A stretch of 64,000 bases of DNA from Pseudodesulfovibrio tunisiensis (lineage in GTDB: Bacteria > Desulfobacterota > Desulfovibrionia > Desulfovibrionales > Desulfovibrionaceae). The stretch lies in contig NZ_CP094380.1 of the NCBI RefSeq assembly GCF_022809775.1, positions 806,001-870,000 of the forward strand. Direction: 5' to 3'. Position 1 is the first letter of the stretch. Each line of letters begins with the position of its first letter. The notes beneath the pieces were generated by a model that was not told the DNA's origin, ran no database searches, and saw only the letters and a program-made list of their open reading frames with translations. Of the stretch, positions 52,158 through 62,558 are shown piece by piece. The position numbers and the translations under genes are program-made.

Positions 52158-53354
52158 TTACCCTCCTCCACGTCGTTTCAAGTGAACGATTTTCTCGCCG
52201 TTCCCCTGTGCACGGCGAATCAGTTTCGACATCTCGAAAGCCCGCTCTCCCTGGAGCTGGCAGTACCGATCAAACGCCTTGTTGGTGTCATGCTCGGACG
52301 CATCCTTGGCAGCGTCCCGGCCAGCCAGCTTGGCGAGCTGCGTTGTCGAGGTGTGCCGGGTTCCGCCGTACAGATCCACGCCTTCAACCCCGACCAGCTT
52401 GCAGGCCCGCTTCCACCAGACATAGAGATACTTCTGCCCGAAGGGCGTTCCCTCCTTCACGGGCGGAATGGCATTGTGATGCCGGAAGAACAGCGTGCCG
52501 GGCAGCGCGGGATATTTCCGCTTGAGCCAGTCCAGCACCTCCACATGCTCGTCCAGCAGCCGCACGGTCTTGCGCCGGTTCTTGCGTTTGGTCGGGCGCG
52601 GGAAATCCAGCACGCCGTAGTGCAGGTCAATGTGGCCTTCTTCCAGCCGGAGCAGGTCCAGCGGCCGCAGATTGGTGTAGATCGAAAGCAGGTCGATCCC
52701 CACGTATATCTTTGGATTGAGGTCCCACGTCAGCTCCCGCACCTTGTCCTTGATCTTCTTCTGGGTCTCCCAGTCCGTGAAGTTGCGCCAGCCCAATTCG
52801 AATTCGATGACCGGAAGGACAGGCACCTGATCACGGGTCAGGATTTCCTCTTCGACCAGCCACCGGGTGAAAAACACGTTCAACACGCTTCGATAGTTTG
52901 CCCTGGTCTTGCTCTTCACGTTCAATCCGAGCAGGAAGTGCTTGATCTCGCGCCGCCCGATGGATTTGACGTTCCGGTCGCCCCACGCCTCGATGGCCAT
53001 TTTCATGACCCGCGTCAGCTTCTGCTTGTAATTGTCGGACAGATTCGTTTCCGCGTGCCTCTCGTCCACGAATTCCTCGGCCAGCTTTTCAAAGGATAAT
53101 GGGTTGTCGGCCTGATAATCCCGAAAATCCAGAGTTCCCTTGTCCTCCTCGAACCGGATCCCGTTGAGGAATCGCTCGGCCTCGGCGTAGGTCCGGAAGC
53201 ACTTCCGCAGCTCGCGGCCGAACTTGACGTAGAACTGACGGTACGCCGCCACATGCGGATGTCTGGGACAAAAGCATCCGCCCCGCCGCTCGTCATGCCG
53301 CAGGGGACCACCACAAATGCCACACTTCTGCCGAGTGTAGATGTTGCCTTTCAT
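52158..53354 (-). CDS. int: Prophage tyrosine integrase
   Basis: About 398 residues. An N-terminal zinc-ribbon-like segment (CGICGG and CFCPRH) is followed by an arm/core-binding domain (LSFEKLAEEFVDERH) and a catalytic domain. Catalytic residues seen are Arg in IYTNLRPLDLLRLEEG, a basic cluster near PTKRKNRRKTV, Arg-His in DLYGGTRHTSTTQLA, His in ASEHDTNKAFDRY and the nucleophile Tyr there. The usual HxxR histidine appears replaced by Gly. ATG 53354 has AGGAGG upstream; the frame to 53417 is unneeded. It is read toward ssrA and lies at the left end of the prophage. Confidence 0.92.
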   Translation of the reverse strand: MKGNIYTRQKCGICGGPLRHDERRGGCFCPRHPHVAAYRQFYVKFGRELRKCFRTYAEAERFLNGIRFEEDKGTLDFRDYQADNPLSFEKLAEEFVDERHAETNLSDNYKQKLTRVMKMAIEAWGDRNVKSIGRREIKHFLLGLNVKSKTRANYRSVLNVFFTRWLVEEEILTRDQVPVLPVIEFELGWRNFTDWETQKKIKDKVRELTWDLNPKIYVGIDLLSIYTNLRPLDLLRLEEGHIDLHYGVLDFPRPTKRKNRRKTVRLLDEHVEVLDWLKRKYPALPGTLFFRHHNAIPPVKEGTPFGQKYLYVWWKRACKLVGVEGVDLYGGTRHTSTTQLAKLAGRDAAKDASEHDTNKAFDRYCQLQGERAFEMSKLIRRAQGNGEKIVHLKRRGGG

Positions 53355-53484
53355 GCATAAACCTCCTGATAAACCCACAGGAGTAGCATGCTGGCTATGG
53401 TGGTACAACCTGTTCATTTTCTTAATGAGTTTCCTTATGGTTTCTCATCATGCGGACCATGACCGGAAAGACATCAAGCCATGA

Positions 53485-56752: not shown

Positions 56753-57259
56753 CTAGATGCGGTCCCCGGGCTTGCCCGCGATGGGCCGGAGCCGGGACAC
56801 CATGAGCATTCCACGATTGATCACGTCCACGAGCTCGCGGATGATCTGCCGCGCCTCGCGCTGGGAAATGTGGCACCCCTTGTCGCCGTCATCATGCACG
56901 GCATCCCCGCCAGCCTTGGCAACCTCGCCCATCTCGCGGAACAGGTCGCCCAGACTGTCGAGCAGGGACACGCAATCCAGCGCCGCCACTTCCAGCTCCA
57001 CCGCGCCGATCTCCACCTGCGCCCCGATCCAGTCCAGCACCAGCGTGGACCGGCAGGCCGAACAGAACCGCGCCAGCTTGGGCAGCGTGGGCCAGTAATC
57101 ATCCTTGGCATCACGGATGCGGTTCACGTTGGCAGGCCCCCAGCCGACCATGTTGGCCACGGTCTCCCAGCTCCTGCCGGAGGACGTGACCATCAGCTGC
57201 AACACGTCCGGCAGCGCCAGCGTTGTCAGGTCAATGGACTCGTGCGGATTGCTGTTCAT
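56753..57259 (-). CDS. Phage regulatory protein, CII/CP76-like
   Basis: A 168-residue protein. The N-terminal half holds a HTH (SGRSWETVANMVGWGPANVNRI) and then LPKLARFCSACRSTLVLDW, a layout I associate with the phage CII (CP76) family. The C-terminal half is helical. It would act as a transcription activator or copy-control factor in the lysis/lysogeny decision. ATG has GAGGG 10 nt upstream. Confidence 0.68.
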   Translation of the reverse strand: MNSNPHESIDLTTLALPDVLQLMVTSSGRSWETVANMVGWGPANVNRIRDAKDDYWPTLPKLARFCSACRSTLVLDWIGAQVEIGAVELEVAALDCVSLLDSLGDLFREMGEVAKAGGDAVHDDGDKGCHISQREARQIIRELVDVINRGMLMVSRLRPIAGKPGDRI

Positions 57260-58159: not shown

Positions 58160-58546
58160 ATGAAAATTAACGAAAGATTACTTTATTTAGCTGAAAAACT
58201 TGAAAAATCACGCTCGATATTCAGCGACAAGATTGGGGTAAACAACTCCACTTTTCACGGATATCTGGTGGAAGACGGTGCACAAAGGGTTAAGTTATCT
58301 CTCCTCCTGAACATTCTGGAGAAATACCCCACAGTGAATCGAAATTGGCTTGTCTTTGGCGAGGGAAAACCCTTTCAAAAATCTGAAGAAAACCAAGAAT
58401 CATCCCCGACTCACACAATAGCTACTCCGGTAGCGGATGCAGTCCGGACGGCAGAGACAGCGCTTCGTCAGGCCGGAGCCACGGATGCCGTGGTCTGGCA
58501 GACCGTCATGGGCTTGGCCAAGGTCAACGCGGACAAAGAGGAATAA
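58160..58546 (+). CDS. Phage CI-type repressor, short form
   Basis: A 128-residue protein. The HTH region (SIFSDKIGVNNSTFHGYLVEDG and LLLNILEKYPTVNRNWLVFGEG) matches the N-terminal domain of CI repressors. The self-cleaving serine-protease domain of ~100 residues usually found after it is absent. The C-terminal tail may dimerise. Lack of the protease suggests induction through an antirepressor rather than RecA. It faces the leftward early operon across an operator region and is closed by a terminator. Confidence 0.8.
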   Translation: MKINERLLYLAEKLEKSRSIFSDKIGVNNSTFHGYLVEDGAQRVKLSLLLNILEKYPTVNRNWLVFGEGKPFQKSEENQESSPTHTIATPVADAVRTAETALRQAGATDAVVWQTVMGLAKVNADKEE

Positions 58547-58625: not shown

Positions 58626-59249
58626 ATGAAACGATCAGGCTGTCTTGCAATCATCCTTTTCATGGCTGCGACATGGTTTGCCATCTCCCTAGTCGAGGAA
58701 TGGGAGGCGGTTACTGTTGGCAACCAGCAAACCAAAGCCATCGCTCGCCTGAACGCCAATCCGGATGAGGTTCTTGCCGAGATACAAACACTGGTGGATG
58801 CCCATGCCTATCACGCCGCCCTCGCTGAAACCGACAAATACAAGAACTACTCGAACCAGAACCTTCAGGCTCTGCGCAATCAGATACAAGAACAGCTTCT
58901 GCTTGAGGAAATGAAGGACATCCCCGTCTCCCATGTTGGCGAACGACTGGCGGCCTACGAACAACTGACCCGATTTGCCCCGAACAATCACGAATACAGA
59001 GCCGACCTCGACCGCTGCCAGCAAACACTGGATCGGGCGTTGAAGGCCGTACTCAACGAACAAAAGATCATTGCTGCGGAATGGCAAGACCAGACACTCA
59101 TGACAGCAGTCACCCCCTACAAGGGGTCTCATGACGGCTTTGCCCAGTATTTGTGTGGCGTACTGGCAGACCATGGAATCACGGGCGCAAACGTGGCGAT
59201 AAAGGACAAAGAAGGGAAACAACTGGGCTTTGCATCTTGCCCGCAATAG
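58626..59249 (+). CDS. Membrane-anchored phage cargo protein
   Basis: A protein of about 207 residues. An N-terminal helix (GCLAIILFMAATWFAISLV) precedes a helical domain (PDEVLAEIQTLVDAHAYHAALAE) that resembles TPR-like pairs. It may sit in the membrane with the rest in the periplasm. No good ribosome site before ATG 58626. It follows the repressor and lies in the lysogenic conversion position. Unknown function. Confidence 0.62.
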   Translation: MKRSGCLAIILFMAATWFAISLVEEWEAVTVGNQQTKAIARLNANPDEVLAEIQTLVDAHAYHAALAETDKYKNYSNQNLQALRNQIQEQLLLEEMKDIPVSHVGERLAAYEQLTRFAPNNHEYRADLDRCQQTLDRALKAVLNEQKIIAAEWQDQTLMTAVTPYKGSHDGFAQYLCGVLADHGITGANVAIKDKEGKQLGFASCPQ

Positions 59250-59295
59250 TGATGTTTTTTGCTCTCACTCTCAACCGCATAGCGAGGATACGACA

Positions 59296-60132
59296 ATGTC
59301 TTTTCATGAAAGTGTCGAAGGGTTCGTCAAGCCAATTTGCCTATTAGCATTTGCACTTTGTGTCTTTGGATGTACGGAACCAACCCTTGACACGACATCG
59401 AAGGCAACCTTTGAAACGTCAACCGAACAAATCATGAAATCCTTGGACGCAACAAAAAGCGAAGAATTCAAAGAAGCTCTCACTTTTCTTATCGGCAATT
59501 CCATAGACCTCGGCTCCGCCATGCGTGCGTCCTTGGCGGGCAAGGAATATGATCCTTTCGCATCTCTTCAGGACCTGAAAGGCATGAACGCAGACCAGAT
59601 AATAACACATGCCAACCAGGTCATGAAGGAACGAGAAGAAAAGATGCGAGAACAAGCCCTTAAGGAAATCGCCGAACTTGAGGCCTCCAAGATCAAGGCG
59701 GAAGAAGCTCAAGTGGAACTTGAGAAATTCAAAGTGCTCAAATCCCGCTTCTACAAATACAAAAAAGAGCACTCTTTCACTGCAAAACCAATTATCGAAT
59801 TGAAGGTCAAAAACGAAACGACATATCCGATCTCCCGCATATATTGCCAAGGCGTTTTGGCTAGCCCCGGCAGAGCCATCCCTTGGCTGCAAGAAGAATT
59901 CAACTACCAGATAGCAGGAGGATTGGAACCCGGCGAAATTGGCGACTGGTCGCTTGCGCCCAATTCCTTCAGCACATGGGGGAAAGTGGATGCGCCAAAA
60001 GATGCTGTTCTCACAGTGACCATCACACGCCTTGACGGGCCAGACGAAAAGGAACTGTTCTCCTCTGACTTTTCCGAATCCAAAAGGAAACGATTGGAAG
60101 AACTTAAAGCCAAATATCAATCACAAAACTGA
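59296..60132 (+). CDS. Phage-encoded lipoprotein, DUF6694-like
   Basis: About 278 residues. A signal peptide ends in LCVFGC (lipobox Cys near residue 23). The mature N-terminus (LDTTSKATFETSTEQIMKSL and EEFKEALTFLI) fits DUF6694 lipoproteins, which are often found in prophages. A coiled coil (REEKMREQALKEIAELEASK) leads to a beta-rich C-terminal domain. GAGGA precedes ATG 59296. It may act in superinfection exclusion; inference only. Confidence 0.72.
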   Translation: MSFHESVEGFVKPICLLAFALCVFGCTEPTLDTTSKATFETSTEQIMKSLDATKSEEFKEALTFLIGNSIDLGSAMRASLAGKEYDPFASLQDLKGMNADQIITHANQVMKEREEKMREQALKEIAELEASKIKAEEAQVELEKFKVLKSRFYKYKKEHSFTAKPIIELKVKNETTYPISRIYCQGVLASPGRAIPWLQEEFNYQIAGGLEPGEIGDWSLAPNSFSTWGKVDAPKDAVLTVTITRLDGPDEKELFSSDFSESKRKRLEELKAKYQSQN

Positions 60133-60249
60133 CGTAACAAAACAGATCCGCCTCTTCCCTGCCCGGCTCGAAAAGCCGTGGAGAATCACACGGAATGTCC
60201 CATGCTGCACGCATACCGTAATCGACATTCCACGTGAAGGAGGCACCCA

Positions 60250-60435
60250 ATGGACCATCAGCTGGAAATCATCAGAGAGTTGCATGAAATGGGGGACGCG
60301 CTTCTGCTCATCGCCAAGGCACACTTCGAGGAACACCCGGGCAATGCCTACCTCCAGAGCCGCATTGCCCAACGGCTCCACGAGATTGCCGACGAAATCG
60401 TCGTTGCCCAACCGTCCGAGGAAAATCAGACCTAG
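60250..60435 (+). CDS. Small helical protein
   Basis: A 61-residue protein (MDHQLEIIRELHEMGDALLL start), helical and acidic. AGGAGG sits 6 nt before the ATG. It is followed by a perfect hairpin. Unknown function. Confidence 0.68.
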   Translation: MDHQLEIIRELHEMGDALLLIAKAHFEEHPGNAYLQSRIAQRLHEIADEIVVAQPSEENQT

Positions 60436-60437
60436 CA

Positions 60438-60467
60438 CAAGAGGCCCGGCTCGCGCCGGGCCTCTTG
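60438..60467. terminator. Strong hairpin after the small helical gene
   Basis: A 13-bp GC-rich inverted repeat CAAGAGGCCCGGC around TCGC. No clear T-run follows, so termination is likely but not certain. Confidence 0.55.
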
Positions 60468-60550
60468 GCTACGCCTTGTAAAATATGGACAATCAATCAG
60501 AATCAATTGAGCATTATTTCAATGAAACAATGCGACAAAAGGGAACTATA

Positions 60551-60560
60551 GGGGGGGGGG
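60551..60560 (+). repeat. G10 homopolymer tract
   Basis: Ten consecutive G residues one base before the ATG of the nuclease-like gene, inside an upstream frame that starts at ATG 60485. At 8 or 11 G the upstream frame would join the downstream gene, at 10 G it does not. Confidence 0.9.
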
Positions 60561-60561
60561 A

Positions 60562-61854
60562 ATGCCACTTAATATGGAAAACGCTATTGCACATCTTGCA
60601 GAATTTAACTCATACCTACAAGAAAGACTCGGCAATCAATACGGGGAAAGGATTGACGGAATCATTACCTTTCTAGGAACCGGAGATCCCATATATAGGA
60701 ATTGTCCAGATCGATTATTTCTATATGTTTTTTATGCACAATCGATAATAAATAACGACTTCACTTTGTACAACTTTAACGAAGGGGCTAGATCCATTCC
60801 AATGTTCGTGAATCTAGCTCAAAAATGGCCAAACATTTATGAAATAGGAAATTATGAAGATAAAATAACTGAGATGTGCGACGTTGCGAACAACAATATC
60901 GACGCTACCATATTTGAAATATTAGTAGCACTAGGGTATGTAGGATTGGGTTATAATGTATCGTTTGTGCCAGTAGGGAATAGACGTACTCCCGATTTAC
61001 AAATTGAAAAAAATGGAGTCTTGAGGCATGTTGAATGTAAAAAAATGCAACGAGGAAACCAATACTCATATAAAGAATTGGTAAGGTGGTACGCAATAGC
61101 TGATGGCATAAAAAAAATCATAACCGAAACAGAACTATCTGGGCACATTCATATCAAATTTTTGCAGGTCTTAGAAAAAATAAATCCAAAGCGGATTTTT
61201 CGTAAAATCTACAAAAAAATTGATGTATGCCAATCAATAACAAGACCTTTTCACATTACCAAAAACAAAGATTTCAAAATTAAATTTTCTCCAATAAATC
61301 CCAATTTAATAAATGTTGACATGGACCCTATGCGCCATGTTCAAGGAGCAACCATAATAGAATATCTAACTGGCAGCTACAGCCCTTTTATTAACTATAA
61401 ACTTCTGCTCAGTGGGCAAATGTATGGACCATATATAGATCGTATAAATTCTGCCTCAGTAATTTCTGGCAATCTCGACAATTATAAATCAGCTCAAAAA
61501 AAGGCCCAACACGCAAAACGAAAAATAGCTGAAGCGACACGTCAAATAAATGCTGGCTATCATGGAGATATTCACATCTTAATTGAAGAATGCAATGGGT
61601 TAAATACCTATCATGAAAGACTTCGCAACAACTTCCAAGAAATACTTTCTTTTGAAGACAATCAGGAAGGCTTGGAAAGAATATATCTCCATATCGCTAA
61701 GTATATAGTTCCTCTTGAGGGCTTATTTGACGTTGAAGAAACAGTGACAACTTTTAATAGAAATGGATTTGTCCCAGAAAACATACAATCCGTTTGGTAT
61801 GCTGGAGAAGAATATGGTGAAGGTTTTGGAAATTTGATGGAAGAATGGCAATAG
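60562..61854 (+). CDS. AT-rich cargo gene, PD-(D/E)XK nuclease-like protein
   Basis: A 430-residue protein of clearly lower GC than its neighbours, so acquired recently. Around residues 115-155 it has TIFEILVALGYVGLGYNVSF, then NRRTPDLQIEKNG and HVECKKMQRG. The E, PD and ExK spacing fits the catalytic core of restriction-type nucleases. The other regions are not recognised; the second half is helical with a Lys/Ala-rich coil. It lies at the 3' end of the prophage cargo block, convergent with the tail genes, where defence or superinfection-exclusion genes often sit. A G10 run precedes the ATG, and an alternative N-terminus from 60485 would add about 26 residues if the run changed length. Confidence 0.68.
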   Translation: MPLNMENAIAHLAEFNSYLQERLGNQYGERIDGIITFLGTGDPIYRNCPDRLFLYVFYAQSIINNDFTLYNFNEGARSIPMFVNLAQKWPNIYEIGNYEDKITEMCDVANNNIDATIFEILVALGYVGLGYNVSFVPVGNRRTPDLQIEKNGVLRHVECKKMQRGNQYSYKELVRWYAIADGIKKIITETELSGHIHIKFLQVLEKINPKRIFRKIYKKIDVCQSITRPFHITKNKDFKIKFSPINPNLINVDMDPMRHVQGATIIEYLTGSYSPFINYKLLLSGQMYGPYIDRINSASVISGNLDNYKSAQKKAQHAKRKIAEATRQINAGYHGDIHILIEECNGLNTYHERLRNNFQEILSFEDNQEGLERIYLHIAKYIVPLEGLFDVEETVTTFNRNGFVPENIQSVWYAGEEYGEGFGNLMEEWQ

Positions 61855-62081: not shown

Positions 62082-62558
62082 TTAAGCATTGGGGATTTCG
62101 GGCCAAGTGACAGAATGGGGAAAACCTGCCTGCAGTGGGATATCCCGCAATTCCTGACGATACAGGGACCAAACATCCTTGACAGTAGAGGACAACGGTG
62201 AATCCGGCAGCTGGGTATGATCGCTGGCCCGCAAAAGGGCATCACGACGGGCACGAACAATTTCAGCCACCTCGTCTTCCGGCAGAAGTTCGAGCACCAC
62301 AAGGACACGATTGTTGGCAAAGTCGGGGGTGATGGAGAGGGTTGAGAATTCGTCCGGTTCGGTATCGGGACCATCGACGTGAAGTACGACCAGCCCCGCT
62401 TCAGCCAGCTTCATGGGGTTCTCGTAATCGCCCCCACCGAATTTTTCTGCCACACCGTCAGCGTTCAGGAAGTGGAAAGTGGAGATGGTGGAGGAAGGAC
62501 CGACAAGCTGATCACCCCCGTCAGGATTCTTGGACGCCGGAAGTTTGTAGTACGTCAT
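62082..62558 (-). CDS. Phage tail (fibre) assembly chaperone-like protein
   Basis: A 158-residue protein. The C-terminal stretch IVRARRDALLRASDHTQL followed by LYRQELRDIPLQAGFPHSVTWP is typical of phage tail assembly chaperones. It lies just after the tail-fibre-like genes in the leftward direction, the usual place for such a chaperone. It overlaps no neighbour; the gap upstream is 10 nt. Confidence 0.8.
   Translation of the reverse strand: MTYYKLPASKNPDGGDQLVGPSSTISTFHFLNADGVAEKFGGGDYENPMKLAEAGLVVLHVDGPDTEPDEFSTLSITPDFANNRVLVVLELLPEDEVAEIVRARRDALLRASDHTQLPDSPLSSTVKDVWSLYRQELRDIPLQAGFPHSVTWPEIPNA

Follow-up and report, generated by a model that had tools for sequence, protein, structure and literature searches.

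A prophage gene for a probable PD-(D/E)XK nuclease behind a run of ten G

Two kinds of described defence system are among those closest to the locus reported here. A G tract in pglX, of the Streptomyces coelicolor Pgl system, is reported to phase-vary phage defence (PMC4365076). Nuclease-like defences carried by prophages are also a known kind (PMC9519451; PMC9122126). Our locus lies in a 64,000-nucleotide stretch of Pseudodesulfovibrio tunisiensis DNA (hereafter the window), where an original prediction made from the letters of the sequence had placed a run of ten G (G10) beside a nuclease-like prophage gene and proposed a phase-variable defence switch. The whole explanation that we favour, and hold to be somewhat probable, is a different one: that the gene is prophage cargo (a 'moron') for a nuclease with an anti-phage or anti-DNA role, translated from ATG 60562, with the G10 run in its leader.

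The gene in its prophage

The integrase, CII-like, repressor-like and tail fibre assembly genes found around the gene (Table 1) agree with the prophage cargo position that had been claimed for it. Past the end of the window, tail fibre J, minor tail protein and tape measure genes continue the prophage (locus L055). The gene is AT-rich, as the original prediction had it, with a G+C content of 0.35 against 0.55 for the window.

The neighbouring lipoprotein-like gene shares a 146-base DNA match with a Pseudomonas phage gene that its record names lipoprotein. A distant-mode search of the phage collection returned one record, which matched this lipoprotein-like gene alone.

A second observation concerns the far side of the prophage. 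An AT-rich RloB-like gene (G+C content 0.40) lies 3' of the prophage tail genes (L055 18372-19049, about G000:C1:888271-888948); it matches Pfam RloB (E 2e-15) and PADLOC AbiLii (E 3e-15), and is possibly further defence cargo.

Table 1 Features around the cargo gene, in positions of the window
Feature	Position	Strand	Basis
Prophage integrase	52158..53417	-	PHROG 1 integrase, E 2.6e-17
CII-like gene	56753-57259		Pfam/PHROG searches
Repressor-like regulator of prophage	58160..58546	+	PHROG 147 transcriptional regulator, E 1.7e-4
Lipoprotein-like prophage gene, close to cargo gene	59230..60132	+	PHROG 7468, E 3.3e-84; DUF6694, E 1.1e-11
Perfect 12-bp GC-rich inverted repeat, 5' of cargo gene	60438..60467 (arms 60438-60449 and 60456-60467)	+	Computed
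63-residue frame from ATG 60485, entering the G-run	60485..60676	+	ORF list
AAAAGGG, Shine-Dalgarno-like (putative function)	60537..60543	+	Sequence read
G10 run, directly 5' of ATG 60562, in ribosome-binding-site position	60551..60560	+	Sequence read
Cargo gene, 430-residue PD-(D/E)XK nuclease-like protein	60562..61854	+	ORF, motif, predicted fold
Predicted nuclease core, residues 113-200	60898..61161	+	AlphaFold2 model, secondary structure
Tail fibre assembly protein, convergent with cargo gene	62082..62558	-	Phage_tail_APC, E 1.1e-23; PHROG 4912

The predicted nuclease and its relatives

The product of the cargo gene is probably a PD-(D/E)XK nuclease, as motif and predicted fold suggest. 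We aligned 14 sequences (the window protein and its relatives from two related genomes, one phage and ten plasmids), and all 14 share F118, E119, D145, E158, C159 and K160, with D145 occurring as PD or ND. The acidic residue, the D and the (D/E)-x-K of the motif (E119, D145, E158 and K160) thus stand in the expected order in every aligned sequence.

The predicted structure places these residues in a matching core. An AlphaFold2 model built from 12 sequences has a mean pLDDT of 64, with values of 83-91 over residues 111-160 and 57-71 over residues 161-200. The modelled secondary structure runs H113-128, E132-135, E146-150, E153-161, H170-190 and E194-200, which is the alpha-beta-beta-beta-alpha-beta order of PD-(D/E)XK enzymes. 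In the model E119 sits on the helix and D145 and E158-C-K160 go with the strands, before the following helix and strand.

Comparison with solved structures suggests that the modelled core weakly resembles the Holliday junction resolvase Hjc and the homing enzyme I-Ssp6803I. Foldseek gave local matches to Hjc (1ob8; probability 0.98, 1.2 Å over 43 columns) and to I-Ssp6803I (2ost; probability 0.97, 2.0 Å over 50 columns). The local matches span about 43-56 residues, each with an E-value above 0.001, and rows for the unrelated acetyl-CoA carboxylase, which we take for noise, score equal to or above the nuclease rows. Sequence searches against solved structures gave nothing better than E 0.001; in the A1 profile search the PD...ECK of the family aligns with that of 1ob8 at E 0.11. 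The likeness to Hjc and I-Ssp6803I lies in the PD...(D/E)-x-K motif and the core order, whereas the window protein differs from both in its 430-residue length, its N-terminal helical part and its long insertions. Motif, predicted fold and these weak matches together bear out the earlier description of the protein as PD-(D/E)XK-like.

Profile libraries give a divided answer. In Pfam the window protein matches PDDEXK_5 alone, below the cut-off (E 0.009); the weak Pfam matches obtained include PDDEXK_5, Mrr_cat and AHJR-like, none of them above the cut-off. NCBIfam and PADLOC returned no match to the window protein, and the PADLOC 2.0.0 defence models matched none of the 14 family members at E values up to 1. 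The earlier statement that the family is not recognised therefore holds for Pfam above its cut-off, for NCBIfam and for PADLOC; it fails for PHROG 37220, a family of unknown function that matches the window protein at E 2e-12.

We looked for homologues in related genomes and in viral, plasmid and phage collections. Matches occur in three of 98 genomes of relatives and in two of 395 genomes of the phylum (the window genome counted in both cases), and the other two related genomes carry versions that are 28-29% identical. Beyond these, relatives are present in 65 plasmid records, one phage record and 18 viral contigs; scans of the genome contig collection gave no confirmed relative, nor did two of the viral scans, the 18 contigs all coming from a third. 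The version in phage 899 is present in 42 of 5,426 complete E. coli genomes and is annotated 'hypothetical protein' among the matches listed (12 of the 42), while the L067 version has no match in E. coli genomes. A direct phage-plating test of the phage 899 version in E. coli would be simple.

We inspected the gene neighbourhoods of 15 loci, namely those in the two related genomes, that of phage 899, and 12 drawn from the 65 plasmid records. In nine of them, genes for defence or DNA modification, known or by annotation, are close by, a raw count taken with no control set. A type ISP enzyme, MkoC and an HNH protein lie near the homologue in L003/L101; GajA and GajB are nearby in L056, and L063 has the same product names; a PADLOC 'Aga_TIR' is found in L060, SspA/DndA in L062, a type I subunit and Abi (by annotation) in L007, and a SIR2 family neighbour in L057. 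DNA methyltransferases lie nearby in L005 and L059, though these may be plasmid housekeeping genes. The six loci that we did not count as defence-adjacent, by annotation or ORF list, are L002, L004, L006, L058, L061 and L064, the last of which has a UvrD-like helicase nearby. L101 (G034:C1:448000-467500) is an island in its own right, with an integrase, a 406-residue protein of unknown function, the nuclease homologue, an HNH nuclease, the type ISP enzyme and MkoC.

The relatives are thus located on plasmids, islands and phages, and this recurrence near defence genes and in phages agrees with the idea of a prophage defence-type gene. The nuclease might instead serve the phage itself, in recombination, junction resolution or host takeover, and the Holliday junction resolvases among the best structural and profile leads would fit such a role. 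We consider this unlikely, given the 65 plasmid records with relatives, the L101 island, which on our reading of its ORFs has no phage structural genes, and the nine defence-adjacent loci. The family is probably one of widespread, unnamed PD-(D/E)XK defence nucleases, and the window gene would most likely protect the lysogen from other phages or from DNA entering it, with the nuclease presumably acting without partners.

The G-run and the start codon

Direct reading of the DNA gives ten G flanked by A 60550 and A 60561, with ATG 60562 following. The G10, the 63-residue frame from 60485 and the 430-residue ORF at 60562 are all as the original prediction described them, by direct reading and the ORF list, and its arithmetic is also correct: 60562 - 60485 = 77, so that either 8 or 11 G would bring both frames into register.

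A dinucleotide model predicts 0.13 runs of at least ten G on each strand of 64 kb, and 0.0016 within the AT-rich gene stretch. A G10 set against the start codon of an AT-rich gene is unusual, but it was spotted after the fact. The whole genome has 19 runs of at least nine G and nine of at least ten G after merging of matches, where about 53 and about 15, respectively, would be expected if the dinucleotide make-up of the window held genome-wide. Of 36 genomes in the genus (window genome counted), 34 contain ten-G runs; these counts are of overlapping matches and show the presence of runs and not their number. Because nine runs are observed against about 15 expected, and because such runs are so widespread in the genus, a G10 as such is ordinary for this genome.

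Could the length of the run be an artefact of sequencing or assembly in front of an ordinary leader? Elsewhere in this assembly a doubtful stretch (L038 3965-4007; G000:C1:42964-43006) accounts for two of the nine runs; these are 16 and 18 G long, and T-/A-rich low-complexity sequence comes after them. A tRNA-like sequence, recognized by eye, adjoins it; ARAGORN finds no tRNA there. That stretch is probably flawed assembly. The run at 60551, by contrast, is of moderate length and lies in ordinary sequence to left and right, and with ten-G runs so common in the genus, we regard an artefact as rather improbable.

Two further observations on poly-G were made along the way. An 11-G run (L051 2238-2248) falls in the final codons of an ORF some 355 residues long, with a relatively AT-rich flank (G+C 0.42). 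In five congeners (G003, G007, G017, G029 and G034) overlapping G10 matches are very numerous; those of G003 come from runs of tens of G, and the matches may be real or artefactual.

We also examined 28 runs of at least ten G, namely eight of the nine in the window genome (leaving out that of the cargo gene) and 20 from four congeners. Nineteen lie inside ORFs, three precede an ORF of 80 residues or more by no more than 60 nt, and six lie in neither position; the ORFs were listed mechanically and are uncurated, several are on the opposite strand and most have no identified product. With no pattern around defence genes among the 28, poly-G phase variation across the genus was set aside.

What the run at 60551 can do depends on where translation starts. 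From ATG 60562 there are 30 residues from the first methionine to an invariant arginine, and 11 of 24 relatives have 26-31. These short N-termini are not independent of one another, as there are near copies among them (L056/L063, L057/L064 and L004/L079), and for the viral loci we picked the start codon among several candidates. The other 13 relatives have 44-53 residues, 14-23 more than the window protein, and a start at 60485 brought into register would give 55 or 56. Judged by length alone, a longer start would be compatible with the family, as 13 of 24 have longer N-termini. One of these 13, L002, has by eye a further ATG behind AAAGGAG inside its coding sequence, which would move it to the short group.

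Other evidence points to 60562. The ORF from this codon already takes in the conserved region of the family. Compared with the 13 longer N-termini, the first 22 residues read from 60485 are no closer than shuffled sequences (at best, 67 of 500 shuffles did as well). Moreover, GGAG, GAGG, AGGG, GGGG or AGGA occurs within 20 nt before the start in 19 of the 26 relatives for which upstream DNA is available, and none of these tetramers is found in the 20 nt before 60485. We conclude from the sequence that the 60485-60676 frame is probably not translated and that the G-run appears to belong to the leader and not to coding sequence. Because the run lies 5' of ATG 60562, its length cannot frameshift the 430-residue ORF.

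This bears on the switch that was first proposed, in which the true start would be 60485, the gene would be OFF at 10 G and would turn ON when slippage left 8 or 11 G. Such a switch has the correct frame arithmetic on its side, together with the 13 longer relatives, the long homopolymer itself (a feature expected of genes that phase-vary by slippage) and the precedent of the pglX tract (PMC4365076). The complete ORF at 60562, the shuffle comparison and the missing Shine-Dalgarno-like tetramer all count against it. So do the relatives: none of 33 (26 with upstream DNA) has a G-run above 5 near its start, so the tract is not kept at this gene in the family, although with relatives all at 29% identity or below this is a weak test. 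The 18-base flank of the tract, searched as a DNA pattern in viral contigs, gave no match. With a start that resembles 11 of 24 relatives, a tract that lies 5' of it and an unsupported 60485 frame, the claimed N-terminus switch is not supported, nor did the proposed comparison of tracts among relatives come out in its favour; we hold the ON/OFF reading to be very improbable indeed.

A gentler form of control deserves consideration. AAAAGGG lies 18 nt 5' of ATG 60562 because the G-run sits between them; nearer to the ATG it would be a normal Shine-Dalgarno stretch. In relatives such as L058, L070 and L079 a Shine-Dalgarno-like stretch does lie closer, no more than about 10 nt from the start. 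The length of the run could thus set initiation at 60562, so that the level of nuclease would vary from cell to cell. None of the 33 relatives has such a run, however, and G-runs of many different lengths can themselves pair with the anti-Shine-Dalgarno sequence, so that a change in length would be buffered. A slippage-tuned ribosome-binding site of this kind is, in our view, quite unlikely, and the full proposal of an unnamed prophage PD-(D/E)XK defence nuclease with its level set cell by cell through slippage between Shine-Dalgarno and start is very unlikely.

The reading that we favour asks less of the run. Translation would begin at ATG 60562, the gene being complete as it stands, and the G10 in the 5' leader would either serve as a Shine-Dalgarno stretch rich in G or simply be a spacer behind AAAAGGG. 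Slippage would leave the N-terminus unswitched and at most tune translation. Further upstream, the inverted repeat perhaps marks the end of the upstream transcript; it is absent from the output of the + strand terminator scan and has no T-run behind it. No sigma-70-like promoter was found at 60200-60700.

Comparison with known defence systems

In titles and opening abstracts, the literature searched names neither this nuclease family nor a ribosome-binding-site switch in a defence gene, which leaves absence unproven. If the G-run did tune the nuclease, the ribosome-binding site would, speculatively, be an unusual place for phase-variable control of defence.

The setting of the gene recalls the defence hotspots of P2-like phages. 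The window copy adjoins a tail fibre assembly gene, and the relative in phage 899, which we take to be P2-like, is flanked by the tail fibre assembly and tail sheath genes and accompanied by one more hypothetical ORF; by gene order this is presumably the fun locus. In L066 and L067 the relative likewise lies beside an integrase, at 10 and 2 bp, and we assume these integrases to be of P2 type. The window prophage departs from this pattern in its matches to tail fibre J and a lambda-type tape measure, which make it unlike P2. The family also differs from the P2-hotspot defences (PMC9519451; PMC9122126) in having no PADLOC 2.0.0 model.

With Pgl the locus shares a G-run at a probable phage-defence gene. 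The position of the run sets the two apart: the pglX tract lies inside the gene, whereas the window tract lies 5' of the likely start codon.
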